From Thermococcus thermotolerans (GTDB lineage: Archaea > Methanobacteriota_B > Thermococci > Thermococcales > Thermococcaceae), in assembly GCF_024707485.1 (NCBI RefSeq), contig NZ_CP102602.1, forward strand, positions 1,178,001 to 1,242,000: a DNA stretch of 64,000 nucleotides, given 5' to 3'. This document shows positions 11,094 to 22,067 of this stretch, piece by piece. Made by a program: the position numbers and the translations under genes. The notes beneath the pieces are model-generated. The model was not told the origin of the DNA, ran no database searches, and saw nothing but the letters and a program-made list of their open reading frames with translations. Every line of letters starts with the position of its first letter. Within the stretch, counting starts at the first letter, position 1.

Positions 11094-12011
11094 ATGATAC
11101 AAAAGAAAATATTAGGAATAATTACAATTCTAATAGTGTTGTATAGCACCCATACAGTTGTAGCGACTCCATTTGGGATATTAAGTAAAGAGCTAACACA
11201 AACCGAGCTAGAGGAAATTGGAAAAGTTATTAGCGAATACCGAACATTGATATCAAAGGGAGGGCTTCTTAATGACATTAGGGCACAACTACTTCTTATT
11301 AGACATGGGATTAAAAAAGGCAAAACTAAAGAGTATGTTTACAGTTTTCCACGAATCTCAACGAAGAATGGAGAAGCCCATATTCTTGGTAGAGAAGAAA
11401 TATTCCTTAAACTAGAAGTTACACCATATGCTTCATATTATTCTCCAAATTATGTATTTGTAGAATACCATTGGGAGTGGACAGATTCAATGGGAAGACC
11501 TGCCACTGAAGAATGGGGATGGAGAGGAAGTGAAGACCTTATTTATATCCCATATCCCAAGGGAATGCTCGAGGTAGTTCATGTATCTATAACTACAACA
11601 CTAGGTGTGGGGGATAATGGCGGGGTAAGTTATATAGGAGAAAAAGAAGAAACAACAAGCACTATAATTAATGGTGTTAAAACAACAATGACCACAAAAA
11701 CATATGCAGTAAAGGATGAGATTTTCAAGGGATCCATGACTATAATGTACAAAATACATCCAAACGTAAAAGGAGAGCAACTTGAATTTGGCATGAAATA
11801 TGAACATACATATGGTAATACATTATTCTCATTACTAGACAATCCATGGTACAATTTTGCAGCGGGAGTCATAAGTTTGGGATTAGCACTGCTCGCAGCA
11901 CCAGCAGTTATAACGTACACCGTAACAGCCTATACTCTTTCATCAGCTGCTGAAAGCTTATTAGACGGTTCATGGCCAGCATCTGCTAAAAGTTATAGAT
12001 GGACTCTATAG
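11094..12011 (+). CDS. Secreted protein of unknown function (accessory, AT-rich)
   Basis: The 305-residue protein has a clear signal peptide (IQKKILGIITILIVLYS, cleavage probably near VVATP). A beta-rich middle follows (VFVEYHWEWTD, SEDLIYIPYP, MTIMYKIHPN), and the C-terminus has a long hydrophobic stretch (about residues 257-295). The gene is visibly AT-richer than all core neighbours and uses A/T-ending codons, which suggests recent acquisition. It is followed by a relic hairpin repeat and then a small membrane-protein gene. A weak resemblance in the middle part to the secreted protein at 44426-45286 suggests one family. Function unknown; a secreted antagonist with a membrane immunity partner is a hypothesis. 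Confidence 0.8.
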   Translation: MIQKKILGIITILIVLYSTHTVVATPFGILSKELTQTELEEIGKVISEYRTLISKGGLLNDIRAQLLLIRHGIKKGKTKEYVYSFPRISTKNGEAHILGREEIFLKLEVTPYASYYSPNYVFVEYHWEWTDSMGRPATEEWGWRGSEDLIYIPYPKGMLEVVHVSITTTLGVGDNGGVSYIGEKEETTSTIINGVKTTMTTKTYAVKDEIFKGSMTIMYKIHPNVKGEQLEFGMKYEHTYGNTLFSLLDNPWYNFAAGVISLGLALLAAPAVITYTVTAYTLSSAAESLLDGSWPASAKSYRWTL

Positions 12012-12012
12012 A

Positions 12013-12058
12013 CTGACCTTCTCTCGGCGTGAACGGCGAGGCTTTCAAAAGAAAAATG
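12013..12058 (+). repeat. IS200/IS605-like right-end hairpin relic, copy 1
   Basis: It reads CTGACCTTCTCTCGGCGTGA and then ACGGCGAGGCTTTCAAAAG, starting two bases after the stop of the secreted-protein gene. It shares the CTGACCT start, a central GC-rich stem-loop and the end TTTCAAAAGAAAA with the copies at 18227 and 21824. No transposase gene is attached. Confidence 0.55.
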
Positions 12059-12129
12059 CAACAGAGTAACCACACAGTTTTTGTTTTTTCAACAACTATG
12101 TTATTATTTAGTTAGATAGGGGTGTTAAA

Positions 12130-12537
12130 ATGACTCATACAGACTTGGTATCACTGGAAATCATGAGAAGTGCTGATTTTATTAAACAGGTAATAGCCTA
12201 TGCCCTACTCTGTATTGGCAGGTTTTTCTTTCCGCATCCCGAAATAGAGACCGCCTTCTCAGCTGAGTTCTATGGAGCCGTTGCAGTTTATTTCATACTG
12301 ACACTGGCACTTGTTTTCAGCTACGAGCTCCTTCATGATGCGTTCTCGACAAGGAGAGACGAGTTTTCAATGGCAACCCCCAAAGAAAAATGGGTGATGA
12401 GACTCCTAATTTCAGCATACTTTGCGTTCTTACTGGCCACACCCAATAAAGAAAAGAAGCTGATATTATTAATAGCATGGAGCTTTAGTATTGGGCTAGC
12501 ATACCTCATTTCCAAAGTAAGGCTCAGGAAATTCTAA
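12130..12537 (+). CDS. Small multi-pass membrane protein, candidate partner of the secreted protein
   Basis: The 135-residue protein has about four membrane segments (approximately residues 18-34, 48-66, 90-103 and 108-124) and a basic C-terminus (KVRLRKF). I recognise no family. It starts at ATG 12130 after GGGGTG, 118 bases downstream of the AT-rich secreted-protein gene on the same strand, and is similarly non-core in composition. Gene order resembles that of bacteriocin and immunity pairs, and a comparable pair occurs at 43995-45286. The partnership is an inference from order only. Confidence 0.7.
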   Translation: MTHTDLVSLEIMRSADFIKQVIAYALLCIGRFFFPHPEIETAFSAEFYGAVAVYFILTLALVFSYELLHDAFSTRRDEFSMATPKEKWVMRLLISAYFAFLLATPNKEKKLILLIAWSFSIGLAYLISKVRLRKF

Positions 12538-17514: not shown

Positions 17515-17802
17515 TCAGTAGGCATGAGGTTCGGCCTTCCTCAGAAGCTCCAGTAGCTTTAGAAACTCCTCAAGCTCCTCCTTGGAGAAGTGCTCTTCGG
17601 CTTCGCTCTCGGGGTCGAGCCCGGCCAGCATCTCCCGGGCCTTCAGGAGGTCATCCAAATCCTCCTGGAGCTCAAGGACTCTCTGGGCAAACTCGTAGCT
17701 CGTGTGCGGACTCTCAAAGACTCTGTTCTGATTGGCAATTATCGCTATCTTCAGGTTCGCGATGGTTTCGTCGACCAGCTCGATAAGCTCCCCAACCTTC
17801 AT
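17515..17802 (-). CDS. Small acidic helical protein, unknown
   Basis: A 95-residue, highly acidic protein (many Glu/Leu, for example KEELEEFLKLLELL), predicted all-helical or coiled coil. I recognise no family. ATG 17802 was selected because GGTGG is just upstream; the same frame also opens with GTG at 17811. It precedes the MazG-like gene by 9 bases, so a regulatory or partner role for that enzyme is possible but unproven. Confidence 0.7.
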   Translation of the reverse strand: MKVGELIELVDETIANLKIAIIANQNRVFESPHTSYEFAQRVLELQEDLDDLLKAREMLAGLDPESEAEEHFSKEELEEFLKLLELLRKAEPHAY

Positions 17803-17895
17803 ATCCACCACGTCATAACCTACGCACCGGGGTATTTAAGCTTCCCCCGAAACCTTTTTACACCGAATGGAACAAAATTTTACACGGTGGCAAGG

Positions 17896-18147
17896 ATGGA
17901 TTTCGACCTCTTCATGGAGAGGTACGGATACAAGATCCTCTTCGGGATATTTGGGCTCGCCCTCATAGTGATATTCGGGGTTCTGGCGTTCTCTGTCTAC
18001 ACGGTTCTAAGGCTCTTTGGCCTGTTAGCCGGGGGACTGCTCCTTCTCTTCGTAGTCGTCTATGCATTCACCGTCAAGAGGCGCGTCATGGACGCCCAAG
18101 CACAGGCTCACGCGAAGTACTTCTATGACGACAGGCCGAGGAGGTGA
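17896..18147 (+). CDS. Small two-helix membrane protein, paralogue of the split gene downstream
   Basis: The 83-residue protein MDFDLFMERYGYKIL... has two membrane segments (about residues 15-37 and 39-60) and a basic, tyrosine-containing tail (KYFYDDRPRR). No known family. ATG 17896 follows ACGGTGGCAAGG. Five bases after its stop a second gene begins with nearly the same N-terminus (DIGLFMERYGYKIL), showing a tandem duplication. That second copy is interrupted by island A. Confidence 0.75.
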   Translation: MDFDLFMERYGYKILFGIFGLALIVIFGVLAFSVYTVLRLFGLLAGGLLLLFVVVYAFTVKRRVMDAQAQAHAKYFYDDRPRR

Positions 18148-18152
18148 GGAAA

Positions 18153-18230
18153 GTGGACATAGGGCTGTTCATGGAACGGTACGGATACAAAATTCTCACC
18201 GTGCTCTTCGCATCCATAGTGGTGGGCTGA
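18153..18230 (+). pseudogene. 5' fragment of small membrane-protein gene split by island A
   Basis: GTG 18153 opens a 25-codon frame (DIGLFMERYGYKILTVLFAS...) that matches the start of the gene at 17896. It breaks off in the first membrane segment at IVVG, where the hairpin repeat begins and supplies the stop TGA. The rest of the gene is found at 21865-22067. Joining the two gives a continuous two-helix protein with the same layout as the upstream paralogue. Both the sequence break and the reappearance of the tail are visible directly. Confidence 0.75.
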
Positions 18231-18270
18231 CCTCTTACCTGCCTAAAGGGCAAGATTTCAGAAGAAAAAG
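18227..18270 (+). repeat. IS200/IS605-like right-end hairpin relic, copy 2 (left border of island A)
   Basis: It begins CTGACCTCTTACCTGCCTAA and continues AGGGCAAGATTTCAGAAGAA. The stem is GCC-TAAA-GGGC. It starts exactly where the membrane-protein gene is interrupted and lies in the same orientation as the copy at 21824-21865. Confidence 0.55.
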
Positions 18271-18276
18271 TGGTTA

Positions 18277-18761
18277 TCAACGCTCACAGGGATTCCCCAC
18301 CTGAGCTTTAAAGTATTCCTCGGCCCCCTGACGAGGATTTTGCCCTCCATCTTCCCGCTGATGCGCTTGAGGACTATTGCAGTCATATGCGAGCTGAACC
18401 ATGATTTGTCCTCAAGCAAGTCCCGATAGCCCTCTTCGTCCGTCAAATCGCTTTCTCTTACTGAAACAAGTAGTTTATAACCGTTCAATCTCCTGATTAG
18501 AACATACTCCATCTCTTCCCTTCCTGACCTCTTAATCAGCTCGCAGAGACCATCCTCCAAGTCTAAGAGTTCTTTCTTCACTAGGGTAACGCTTGAAGGG
18601 AGAACCTCAAGCTTTCCCCGTTTTACGGTCTCGACCAACCATTCGTACAGGAGGAACTGATTGTTCCCTTCAAAGCCTGCATCTCTGAGGTCGTGGTCGT
18701 CCGTGTTAAATATTTCCCTCTTCTTATCAAGCACGAGGTGAATGTAATTATCAACACCCAC
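18277..18761 (-). pseudogene. Immunity-like family member 3, internally deleted and frameshifted
   Basis: GTG 18761 (after GGGTGAT) opens with GVDNYIHLVLDKK, the family N-terminus. It jumps after about 15 residues to TDDHDLRDAGFEGNNQFLLYEW, which corresponds to the region after residue 125 in the intact copy at 19604-20410. About 110 residues are missing. Near 18324-18328 (five C on the plus strand) the frame slips. In the corrected frame the end reads AEEYFKAQVGNPCER then TGA at 18277-18279. The start overlaps the end of the preceding copy. A relic, not a functional full-length protein. Confidence 0.75.
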
Positions 18762-19577
18762 AGCAATCACCCGACGCCCCGGTTTGTGCCTTAAAAATCC
18801 TCTCGGCCTTCTTGAGTAGTCCCCTGTCCTCAACCCGCCCTGCAATTGGCGCGAGAGTTGTTAACGTGAGGAGCCCGCTTAGTTCTGTTAAATCTTCAAA
18901 GTGCTCCCGGTAAAGTTCCTCATCAGTCAGGTCGTCAGCCCAAATCCTCATTAAAAGCCTGTAATCTCCCATACTCCTTACGAGCACATAGGCGTCCCAT
19001 TCTTCCGGATTTTTCTTTTCAAGGGCATAAAGCCCGTCATCCCGCCCAATGAGCCCCTTTTAATCACCGAAAACGCTGAAGGGAGAATCTGGAGCTCCCC
19101 AAGCCCAAGTAGTTCCACCAGCCGGTCAATTAGGAAGTAATAGTTATCGTACTCAAGCCCCAGGTCTGTTAAATCGATATCATCCTGGTACCCCGAAATA
19201 AGTAATGCCTCCCCATTCATGAAGACTGTCAAAAATCTCATCAGCTCGTGGCTGTAAACGTCCCACCACCAGCCTCTCGGGTTGGGGTGGAGTTCAAGGA
19301 CGGAGAACCAGCCGGCCAGATAAATTTTAAAATCCGCCCCTTCTATGAACCCTCCCCTCACTGTCTGCAGAGGTTGTTTAAACCACAGGTATCCCGAGCT
19401 GATGAGGTCAAAGCTCTTTTTCAGGATTCCTTTCCGCCTGAGATACATTATCTCAGCTCTTGTCCACTTATCGGTATTATCGGGGTCAAACCTCGCCCTG
19501 AACTCTCTCCTCAGGAACTCTTCTACGCGCTCGGGAGTTTGTTCAAAAACGAAGAGGAGGTAGTGGTCAACTCCCAC
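18751..19577 (-). pseudogene. Immunity-like family member 2, single frameshift
   Basis: GTG 19577 (GGTGATGACA before it) starts GVDHYLLFVFEQTPERVEEF. The reading continues normally to SAFSVIKR, then loses the frame near 19054-19061 (runs CCCC and TTTT on the plus strand). One base shift restores LIGRDDGLYALEKKNPEEW through to KAERIFKAQTGASGDCCGC and TGA at 18751. Total length would be about 275 residues, as in the other copies. Either a recent pseudogene or a sequencing error in the homopolymers. No signal peptide; a cytosolic protein. Confidence 0.75.
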
Positions 19578-19603
19578 TGTCATCACCTTTCAATAATCAT
19601 GCC

Positions 19604-20410
19604 TCACAGCGACATGTGATTTATCCCAATTTGGGTTTTGAAATATTTTTCAGCTCTCTTCATGAGGAATTCATCCTCGACCCTCTTTCCAATGCGTTTT
19701 ATTCTCAAATCTGTTAGACTGAGACTGAACCATGCCCTGTCCTCAAGAAGGTCCCGGTAACATTCGTCATCTCTCAGGTTGTCCCTTTTTATCGTAACCA
19801 GAACCTTATCTTCTCCCAGACTCTTTATCAAGACGTACTCCTTCTCACTCTCACCTGGCCTAGGCTCCAGCTCATAAAGTCCATCATCGAGGTTCAGGAG
19901 TTCCCCTTTTACTAAAGTGAAGCCAGAAGGGACGGCTTCCAGTTTTCCTTTTTCCACCTCCCCAACCAACCATTCGTAGAAGAGGAACTGGTTATCCTCT
20001 TTAAAGCCTGCATCTCTGAAATCATGGTCGTCCGTGTAACCACAGATGAGGACCGCCCCAGCCCTCATCAGCTTTCTGAGAAACTTCATTACTTCGGAAC
20101 TCAAGACAAACATCCATCCGCTTGTCCATGCCTCAATCTGGACGAGCGTTGTGTTTTCTCTCGAGTATGTTTCAACATTGGCCAGGGCTATTAACCCTCC
20201 CCACTCTGGTATTGTCTTCATTGGATAGTCAATGTTCCCCACCTCTACCAGCTTGAATCCCCTCATATCAAACAGGAACCGCAGGTCCTTTTCCCTGTCC
20301 TCCCGCTGGTACGCGAGTTCGCGAGTGTACCTGAACTCGCGGGAGAGGTTCTCAAGCACTTCCCTCCAGGGCTTATCAAACACGGCAAGTGTATAATACG
20401 TGGTTCCCAT
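19604..20410 (-). CDS. Immunity-like family member 1 of island A (intact)
   Basis: The 268-residue, soluble, acidic protein has no signal peptide or membrane segment. ATG 20410 was chosen (GGGGGAGTGGT before it), giving MGTTYYTLAVFDKPWREVLE. Family features shared with the other copies are a short N-terminal strand, an aromatic middle region, ICGYTDDHDFRDAGF, a Leu/Lys-rich segment (GKLEAVPSGFTLVK), DGLYELEPRPG and the C-terminal AEKYFKTQ. It lies directly downstream of the exported nuclease-like gene, as immunity genes do. I recognise no named family, and the immunity role is inferred from order, location and tandem paralogy. Confidence 0.8.
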   Translation of the reverse strand: MGTTYYTLAVFDKPWREVLENLSREFRYTRELAYQREDREKDLRFLFDMRGFKLVEVGNIDYPMKTIPEWGGLIALANVETYSRENTTLVQIEAWTSGWMFVLSSEVMKFLRKLMRAGAVLICGYTDDHDFRDAGFKEDNQFLFYEWLVGEVEKGKLEAVPSGFTLVKGELLNLDDGLYELEPRPGESEKEYVLIKSLGEDKVLVTIKRDNLRDDECYRDLLEDRAWFSLSLTDLRIKRIGKRVEDEFLMKRAEKYFKTQIGINHMSL

Positions 20411-20457
20411 ACCACTCCCCCCATGATTCATTCATAATGGAAAATAAAGAAACAGGT

Positions 20458-21555
20458 TCAGTCGAATTCTGAAGCCAAGTAGAATACTTCAACGTCCACT
20501 CCGAACTTGGACTTTATCTCTTTTGGCAGGCGATATTTGTAGTAGTAATAAGACGCGGGGCTGTCAGCTCCCTCGGAGAAGTACACCTCAATCTTTCTGA
20601 TTCCATTATTGATGGCGTACTCAGCGTACTTTGCAAGCTGTTCCTCGCTTATTTTATGTGCGTTTCTCTTGCACTCTATCAGCACGATATCTGACCCTTT
20701 CTTGGTTATGATGTCAACCTCCGTTAGAGTTCTTCCCGATGCGTCTCTAATCTCTTTCTCGACTTCTTTTATTGTCCACCCATTCTTTTTGAGGTAGCTA
20801 ACCACTTCCGCCTCGTAGAGTGGACCCAGGGTTTTCTTCTTTTTTAAGTCTCTATTAATGGCCCCAATGAGTTTGCTTCCTCCGTGTTTAACGCTGCTTG
20901 CATCGTTAAGTACTTCTTCAAGCTTCTCAACGTCCCAGTCTCGGCGAATAACCTCCTTAAATGCATTCTTGTTAGTTAACCACTTCCTGATCCTTTTGAG
21001 GCTATCAACAACCTCATCAAAGTCCATGCCACGCCTTTTTACGTATTTCTCGCCTATCTCCTCGAGGTACTGCTTGCCCAGTTCATTTACAACCCACCTG
21101 GCGTTTTCTTTGCTGACTTTCGTGAATTCCCTAACCATTATTTTATGTCCCAGGTAGTCCTTTACGATGCCCATTGAAAATCTGGATATTTCATCCCCGT
21201 CCTTCGCGAGTATCTTGATTCCCCATTTTCCACCGCGAACGATGTCTGTTGGATCTGGAGCAAGAATAGTGGATAGTGCATCATACGCCATTGCTGCCTC
21301 AGGAGAGACGTAATGTTCGATAGCAAGACTTAACGCATTGTCCACGAGGATTGCACCTATTACCAGGACAATTCCCGGAACAGCCTGAGGCTGAACCTCA
21401 TCTCTTGGCCCCTTCTCCGGACTGAACTCCTGCGGAACCGTTACTGTACTGTTCACCGTCGCGTTAACGAAGCTTGCCGTGGCACTAGCTCCACTGACCG
21501 TCATTCCCAAGAAGAGCACCACCAAGGCTAGAGCAAAAAACCTCTTCCAACCCAT
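20458..21555 (-). CDS. Exported protein with C-terminal PD-(D/E)xK nuclease-like domain (putative toxin, island A)
   Basis: The 365-residue protein starts at ATG 21555 after GGAGGTGAAC. A signal peptide (residues 1-25, WKRFFALALVVLFLG) is followed by a second hydrophobic stretch (about 60-80), a charged helical middle (110-235) and a C-terminal nuclease-like domain. That domain has YEAEVV with Glu248, EVDIITKK with Asp281, and IECK with Glu294 and Lys296, then a Gln/Tyr helix (EEQLAKYAEYA). This is the E...D...ExK layout of restriction-endonuclease-like enzymes. It is about half identical by eye to the protein at 53330-54400. Export plus a nuclease tail plus downstream paralogues suggests a secreted toxin; activity is not proven. 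Confidence 0.82.
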   Translation of the reverse strand: MGWKRFFALALVVLFLGMTVSGASATASFVNATVNSTVTVPQEFSPEKGPRDEVQPQAVPGIVLVIGAILVDNALSLAIEHYVSPEAAMAYDALSTILAPDPTDIVRGGKWGIKILAKDGDEISRFSMGIVKDYLGHKIMVREFTKVSKENARWVVNELGKQYLEEIGEKYVKRRGMDFDEVVDSLKRIRKWLTNKNAFKEVIRRDWDVEKLEEVLNDASSVKHGGSKLIGAINRDLKKKKTLGPLYEAEVVSYLKKNGWTIKEVEKEIRDASGRTLTEVDIITKKGSDIVLIECKRNAHKISEEQLAKYAEYAINNGIRKIEVYFSEGADSPASYYYYKYRLPKEIKSKFGVDVEVFYLASEFD

Positions 21556-21597
21556 GAGTTCACCTCCAACGCTGTTCATATGGATAATAAATCCAAA

Positions 21598-21606
21598 CCT
21601 TAAAAA
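21598..21606 (-). promoter_or_regulatory. TATA box of island A operon
   Basis: On the minus strand an AT-rich tttttaagg lies about 45 bases before the start codon at 21555. No other promoter is visible before the three downstream family members, which suggests one transcript. Confidence 0.4.
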
Positions 21607-21823
21607 ATTTACTATTTTTAATATTAACAAGGCAATGACAATTGAAATTGAACTACTTCACTATTGGAACACCAAATTACAACCGCCAAAACAGGACAAT
21701 TAAAGAACCGCCAGAAGCCAGAAACCCTACCCGAATATGGATTAACCTACCGGGAAACAGTCCAACCTCCCAAAGTTCGAGAAAGGAAGGGAAAGAGTGG
21801 GTTTGGAGAAGCCCAAACTGTGA

Positions 21824-21865
21824 CTGACCTCCCACCCTGAAGGGCAAGGCTTTCGGAAGAAAATG
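21824..21865 (+). repeat. IS200/IS605-like right-end hairpin relic, copy 3 (right border of island A)
   Basis: It reads CTGACCTCCCACCCTGAAGG then GCAAGGCTTTCGGAAGAAAA. The stem is GCCCT/AGGGC-like, as CCCT-GA-AGGG. The interrupted membrane-protein gene resumes at its last bases. About 170 bases before it (21650-21823) an open but unrecognised frame runs into the repeat and may be a decayed gene end. Confidence 0.55.
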
Positions 21866-22067
21866 TAATCAGCGTTCCGTTTCTCATCATGTTCTGGGGC
21901 TTCTCAGATTACGCACCGGTTGCCGGCGTTATCACTGTGGTGGCGTTCATCCTTGGGTTCTCTTCATAATGGCACCCAGGGGATGGCGCTCGGAGACTAT
22001 GTCGAGAACGTTCGTCCGGACTTACAACAGGGTCTACTACACCAAGAACGAGAAAAAGCAACGGTGA
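21865..22067 (+). pseudogene. 3' fragment of the split membrane-protein gene, with a frameshift
   Basis: From 21865 the frame reads VISVPFLIMFWGFSDYAPVA then GVITVVAFILG and stops at 21967. A one-base shift at the GGG near 21955 continues VLFIMAPRGWRSETMSRTF, ending VYYTKNEKKQR with TGA at 22065. The two pieces supply the second membrane helix and basic tail missing from the fragment at 18153. The frameshift shows the gene has been decaying since it was split. Confidence 0.65.

Follow-up and report, generated by a model that had tools for sequence, protein, structure and literature searches.

Short hairpin repeats in Thermococcus thermotolerans as probable ends-only derivatives of a TTAC-specific IS605 family

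Introduction

In Haloquadratum walsbyi, deletion of the core of IS605-type elements between palindromic direct repeats of 19-22 bp, situated near the termini, gives rise to terminal-only PATEs of 52 bp (PMC3119063). Six insertions of the 52-bp form ISHwa23 are strain-specific, which suggests that such a derivative has continued to move (PMC3119063). A PATE-like sequence of Halanaerobium hydrogeniformans likewise is an ends-only IS605 derivative that TnpA is considered able to move in trans; it differs from the repeats described below in being longer (28 nt of the left end, 58 nt of tnpB and the whole right end) and in occurring as a single copy (PMC7290912). In IS608, the left cleavage site and its guide are TTAC and AAAG, and the second pair is TCAA and GAAT (PMC5934647). 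Short hairpin repeats tied to a TnpA-like transposase are also found among the REP/REPIN elements, which are mobilised by RAYT (PMC3116915, PMC2817692).

Here we describe three hairpin repeats in a stretch of 64,000 nucleotides from Thermococcus thermotolerans (the window), which very probably are ends-only derivatives, of the terminal-only PATE type, of a TTAC-specific Thermococcus IS605 family, presumably formed by deletion between the two hairpins of the full element. They resemble the Haloquadratum terminal-only PATEs (core deletions of HqIRS46, ISHwa23; PMC3119063) in their fused IS605-type termini, their size of about 50 bp, the lack of target duplication and a possible mobility in trans, and differ from them in the Thermococcus lineage, the target TTAC, a family-specific hairpin and the framing of an accessory island by two copies. 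What sets them apart from REP/REPIN elements is a direct origin from IS605 ends, a low number per genome in most species and the presence of TTAC and TCAG. The kind of element is already known; what is added is its Thermococcus family, together with the target and guide sequences and the distribution of that family, and an island framed by two such scars. In a literature search whose scope left aside most subscription papers as well as ISfinder, no publication linking Thermococcus, IS605 and MITE was found.

Results and discussion

The three copies in the window

Exactly three matches to the pattern CTGACCT..TTTCNNAAGAAAA are present in the window and none in 100 dinucleotide shuffles, and the three copies lie where the original prediction had placed them. 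All are found both by this pattern and by a covariance model on the minus strand: copy 1 at 12013..12057 (45 bp), copy 2 at 18227..18269 (43 bp) and copy 3 at 21824..21864 (41 bp). Their E-values are 7e-13, 5e-10 and 6e-10, respectively, and are partly self-trained, since the 30 copies from which the model was built take in those of the window. The original prediction had read the repeats on the plus strand; this is the reverse complement of the element, because full elements have their ends, tnpA and tnpB in the orientation of the window's minus strand. The tetranucleotides that follow copies 1, 2 and 3 on the plus side are GCAA, GTGG and GTAA, with a consensus GTAA that corresponds to TTAC on the minus strand; read in the latter direction, copy 1 has TTGC on its target side (12058-12061), copy 2 has CCAC in place of TTAC (18270-18273) and copy 3 has TTAC itself (21865-21868).

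On the minus strand, the consensus of the short form reads TTAC, followed at the insertion point by [A/T]TTTTTCTTTTGAAAG CCTCGCCC TTCA GGGCGGGG AGGAGGTCAG. Its layout after TTAC is [A/T]TTTTTCTTTTGAAAG-CCTCGCCCTTCAGGGCGGGG-AGGAGGTCAG, that is, a left tip, a single hairpin common to both ends and a right tip. The flanks before TTAC and after the terminal TCAG are unrelated among copies, which leaves TTAC as the sole conserved flank. The palindrome near the termini of the short form makes a hairpin with modest pair support; copies 1 and 3, taken on the element strand, fold no better than shuffled sequence, as decayed copies might.

Copy 1 directly follows the stop codon of the gene at 11094-12011 and, as had been predicted, separates a pair of AT-rich genes (11094-12011 and 12130-12537). 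Both neighbour genes are adjacent in one relative (G073, locus L163), in which the intergenic sequence is too diverged for base-level boundaries.

Kinship with full IS605 elements

Sister genomes contain intact IS605 elements of 1.9 kb, which encode TnpA (PF01797) and TnpB and have the same ends as the repeats. The cleanest of them (L302) has both genes and a length of 1,893 bp, counted from the first base behind TTAC through TCAG; at the left it reads TTAC, then ATTTTTCTTTTGAAAG-CCTCGCCGTTCACGGCGGGG-ATACAATAA.., and at the right ..GGAAC-CCTCGCCCTTCAGGGCGGGG-AGGAGGTCAG. Comparison of these ends with the repeats therefore shows that, in the short form, what precedes the hairpin corresponds to the left tip, and the hairpin with all that follows it to the right tip. 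The original prediction of an IS200/IS605 right end was correct as to the family, which has intact relatives with TnpA and TnpB, and too narrow as to the end: the left half of the repeats matches the left ends of full elements, which rules out a right end only, and the right half matches their right ends, so that the copies are fused left and right termini and nothing else. We hold the assignment to the IS605 family firmly. The case that would have spoken against it, a repeat scattered at random with no link to tnpA or tnpB, did not occur.

On the 5' side of the stem, 13 of 17 left ends have the tetranucleotide AAAG, and 21 of 24 right ends have GAAC. Applied to TCAG, the TCAA/GAAT pattern of the second IS608 pair would yield GAAC by our own derivation, which fits. 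The parental Thermococcus elements, which like IS608 encode Y1 TnpA and TnpB, share with it the left site TTAC, the left guide AAAG, subterminal hairpins and insertion 3' of TTAC, and differ in the right site and guide (TCAG/GAAC as opposed to TCAA/GAAT; PMC5934647). The short form retains AAAG and has lost GAAC, tnpA and tnpB. Unlike IS608, the window copies thus have one hairpin with the left guide at most, no right guide and no genes; at 41-45 bp they have no coding capacity, encoding neither Y1 TnpA nor TnpB, and the two subterminal hairpins, each with a 5' guide, that characterise an IS200/IS605 element are not there. Judged by their sequence they are to be seen as derivatives of IS200/IS605 elements and not as IS elements themselves. 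Within a full element the left and right hairpins are almost the same (in L302, identical at 19 of 21 nt by eye) and therefore constitute a direct repeat of about 20 bp, which is palindromic as well.

In full right ends, the hairpin is preceded by a conserved sequence (..GAGGGGTTAACTCGTTGGAAC; ..GAGGGGTTAACTCGTTGGAACCCTCGCCC..), which could pair with the hairpin; it is absent from the window copies. This bears on the suggestion that the repeats might be transcribed as guide-like RNAs, in its general form that they are right-end-derived genes or decoys for the guide RNA (omega RNA) that would serve a TnpB of the genome. In its favour, both the right hairpin and the tail are part of the copies, and the genome encodes a TnpB of this family (L037); against it, the conserved sequence upstream of the hairpin is missing, a search of Rfam gave no match at the window copies, and the orientation, and with it the side on which a guide would lie, is opposite to that implied by the plus-strand reading. 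An omega RNA of TnpB has a right-end scaffold from the 3' region of tnpB and then the guide, an arrangement that the copies do not have. Nothing in their sequence would support a guide-RNA function, and we regard it as very improbable. Nor does the loss of the right guide and of the sequence before the right hairpin lend support to autonomous mobility of the copies.

Empty sites and the mode of insertion

The joined flanks of 11 copies from three genomes were searched against the genus, and contiguous, uninterrupted matches were aligned. Empty sites at base level were obtained for four pairs of occupied and empty loci (L204/L245, L206/L258, L212/L278 and L224/L274), and for a fifth (L189/L247) save a one-base shift. 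The empty site in L245 reads TTAC^AATTTC, compared with TTAC[...GGTCAG]AATTTC when occupied; those in L258, L278 and L274 read TTAC^CTCGCGG, TTAC^CGCGGAAT and TTAC^TCCTCCGC. The fifth empty site, that of a copy from the window's own genome, reads TTAC^AAGAGG in L247/L248, with the one-base shift. In the five aligned empty sites the element starts with the base after TTAC, its last four bases are TCAG and no base is duplicated. An end at TCA instead of TCAG, considered on account of the reading frames of the joined flanks, is ruled out by these alignments. Insertion 3' of the fixed tetranucleotide TTAC without target duplication is the hallmark of single-strand insertion by IS200/IS605 elements; together with the near-terminal palindrome, the lack of duplication is also what the terminal-only PATEs display.

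The same alignments contradict the view that the repeats have no transposon origin and are extragenic repeats of a common type, for instance terminators or REP elements. The position of copy 1 just after a stop codon and the GC-rich hairpin in every copy would agree with it; the precise insertion at TTAC, the interruption of a coding gene (see below) and the identity with both IS605 ends would not, and we consider it hardly credible.

Scar or mobile miniature

Anatomy, kinship with the full elements, target site and precise insertion without duplication are observed directly; the step that we propose to connect them is a deletion. The order of the full element is TTAC, left tip, AAAG, hairpin, tnpA, tnpB, GAAC, the same hairpin and AGGAGGTCAG. 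Slippage or recombination between the hairpins, most easily on single-stranded DNA, would remove the genes along with one hairpin and leave a scar of 41-46 bp, comparable to the solo LTR left by a retrotransposon. A TnpA acting in trans may later have moved or amplified some of the scars, which is what was proposed for the ISHwa23 derivative of 52 bp. Among the loci compared, none was found to be occupied by a full element in one genome and, at the orthologous position, by a scar in another; in the candidates L265 and L275/L276, the extra DNA near the junction turned out to be unrelated genes.

It could be argued that the 46-bp form is a miniature element in its own right, mobilised in trans by a Y1 TnpA, and not the scar of a collapse in place. 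One genome (G008), which has no Y1 TnpA and a single, distant TnpB match only, contains copies most of which, among those retrieved, are identical or nearly so at unrelated sites; short copies moreover are widespread, empty sites are common, and mobility of the 52-bp form was inferred in Haloquadratum (PMC3119063). On the other hand, the short form has one hairpin and the left guide only, GAAC being missing, and empty sites alone would look alike whether a scar had moved in or a full element had inserted and later collapsed. We consider this alternative almost evenly balanced, leaning slightly against it.

As for the window's genome, a PF01797 search gave no match for a Y1 TnpA; the intact elements with these ends are those of sister genomes. 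There is one TnpB of the element's family (L037), to which the TnpB of the sister genomes is about 80% identical; its gene has a right end, and its left-end motif is not recognisable. The copies look inert in this genome for these two reasons, and the suggested action of a transposase encoded elsewhere cannot be shown there. A second TnpB gene (L034, G000:C1:1290534-1293728) lies directly after an apparent serine-recombinase gene, by eye an IS607-like arrangement.

Distribution

In the window's genome (2.07 Mb, single contig), eight clear copies were found with the covariance model at E < 1e-6. They are located at 255696, 771064, 993770, 1017123, 1190013, 1196227, 1199824 and 1970024, three of them inside 10 kb; all eight are on one strand (chance about 0.8%, two-sided), the strands being mixed in other genomes. 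Model matches are present in 51 of 61 Thermococcus genomes, with a maximum of 84 per genome; these counts are upper bounds for the short form, because the model also scores the left ends of full elements. In one genome (G024), the 20 retrieved matches all read as the short form. Named records with the same pattern are nearly all Thermococcus or Thermococci, and viral contigs gave a single pattern match on one contig (L324). Plasmids gave one partial match, in a record of Saccharolobus solfataricus (NC_021914.1, 23868-23900), where 33 bases of hairpin and right tip match at 97%; this suggests related IS605 ends in Sulfolobales. Two ends-only copies on a contig of another genome (L023/L033, G025 contig C5) lie about 1 kb apart with TTAC-side sequence alike, suggestive of a duplication that took in the copy.

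An island framed by copies 2 and 3

The original prediction that two copies border an island holds: copies 2 and 3 flank 3.6 kb of AT-richer DNA (18270..21823; about 44-49% GC compared with about 55% in the surroundings) with four genes on the minus strand (18258-18845, 18978-19586, 19604-20431 and 20458-21630). Comparison with relatives reveals that the block of copy 2, island and copy 3, both copies having the same orientation, splits a small membrane-protein gene on the plus strand, whose N-terminal half (18153..18226) ends at copy 2 and whose C-terminal half with a degraded tail occupies 21865..22067. The gene is uninterrupted upstream of iorA in at least seven relatives (L132, L134, L135, L136, L143, L147, L153). 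It forms a tandem paralogue pair with its upstream neighbour, which starts with a similar motif (MDFDLFMERYGYKIL.. / VDIGLFMERYGYKIL..; window 17590-18226), and many relatives retain this pair in front of iorA.

On the minus strand, the outer boundaries are the TTAC of copy 3 and the TCAG of copy 2, and the block therefore sits like a single IS605 insertion. The two copies may share one insertion site through joint movement with the intervening DNA or through recombination of the island into an older scar. According to the former, they would be a composite single-strand transposon that brought the 3.6-kb island into the membrane-protein gene in one step, copy 3 supplying its left end and copy 2 its right end; TTAC and TCAG at the two borders, the common orientation and the contiguous gene in relatives are all as such an event would leave them. 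However, copy 2 itself has CCAC as its left flank and, compared with relatives, the split gene lacks one base at the junction, so that the island's history is untidy; the right guide of the parental elements is missing; and recombination of island DNA into an existing scar yields an identical map. Only one other genome has scars near an island homologue (L173), and there they are in opposite orientation. A composite transposon is, taken together, unlikely, although worth keeping in mind.

Three of the island genes (window 18258-21630) are paralogues of an unnamed family, beside a gene whose 390-aa product has a hydrophobic N-terminus and, at its C-terminus, a weak likeness to YraN/UPF0102 nucleases. 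The layout recalls that of a putative secreted nuclease with several immunity genes.

Conclusions

Ends-only scars of this family can easily pass for terminators, REPs or guide RNAs, and model matches occur in most of the Thermococcus genomes sampled. They mark former IS605 activity where the transposase no longer remains, and they extend the account of ends-only PATEs in Haloquadratum to a hyperthermophile genus. The boldest reading, that single-hairpin elements of 46 bp with the left guide only are still mobile in trans and that pairs of them carry several kb of host genes as a composite transposon, seems to us improbable. The scars would allow a clean test of two points: whether one hairpin and one guide are enough for TnpA to move an element, and whether pairs of scars may acquire accessory genes.
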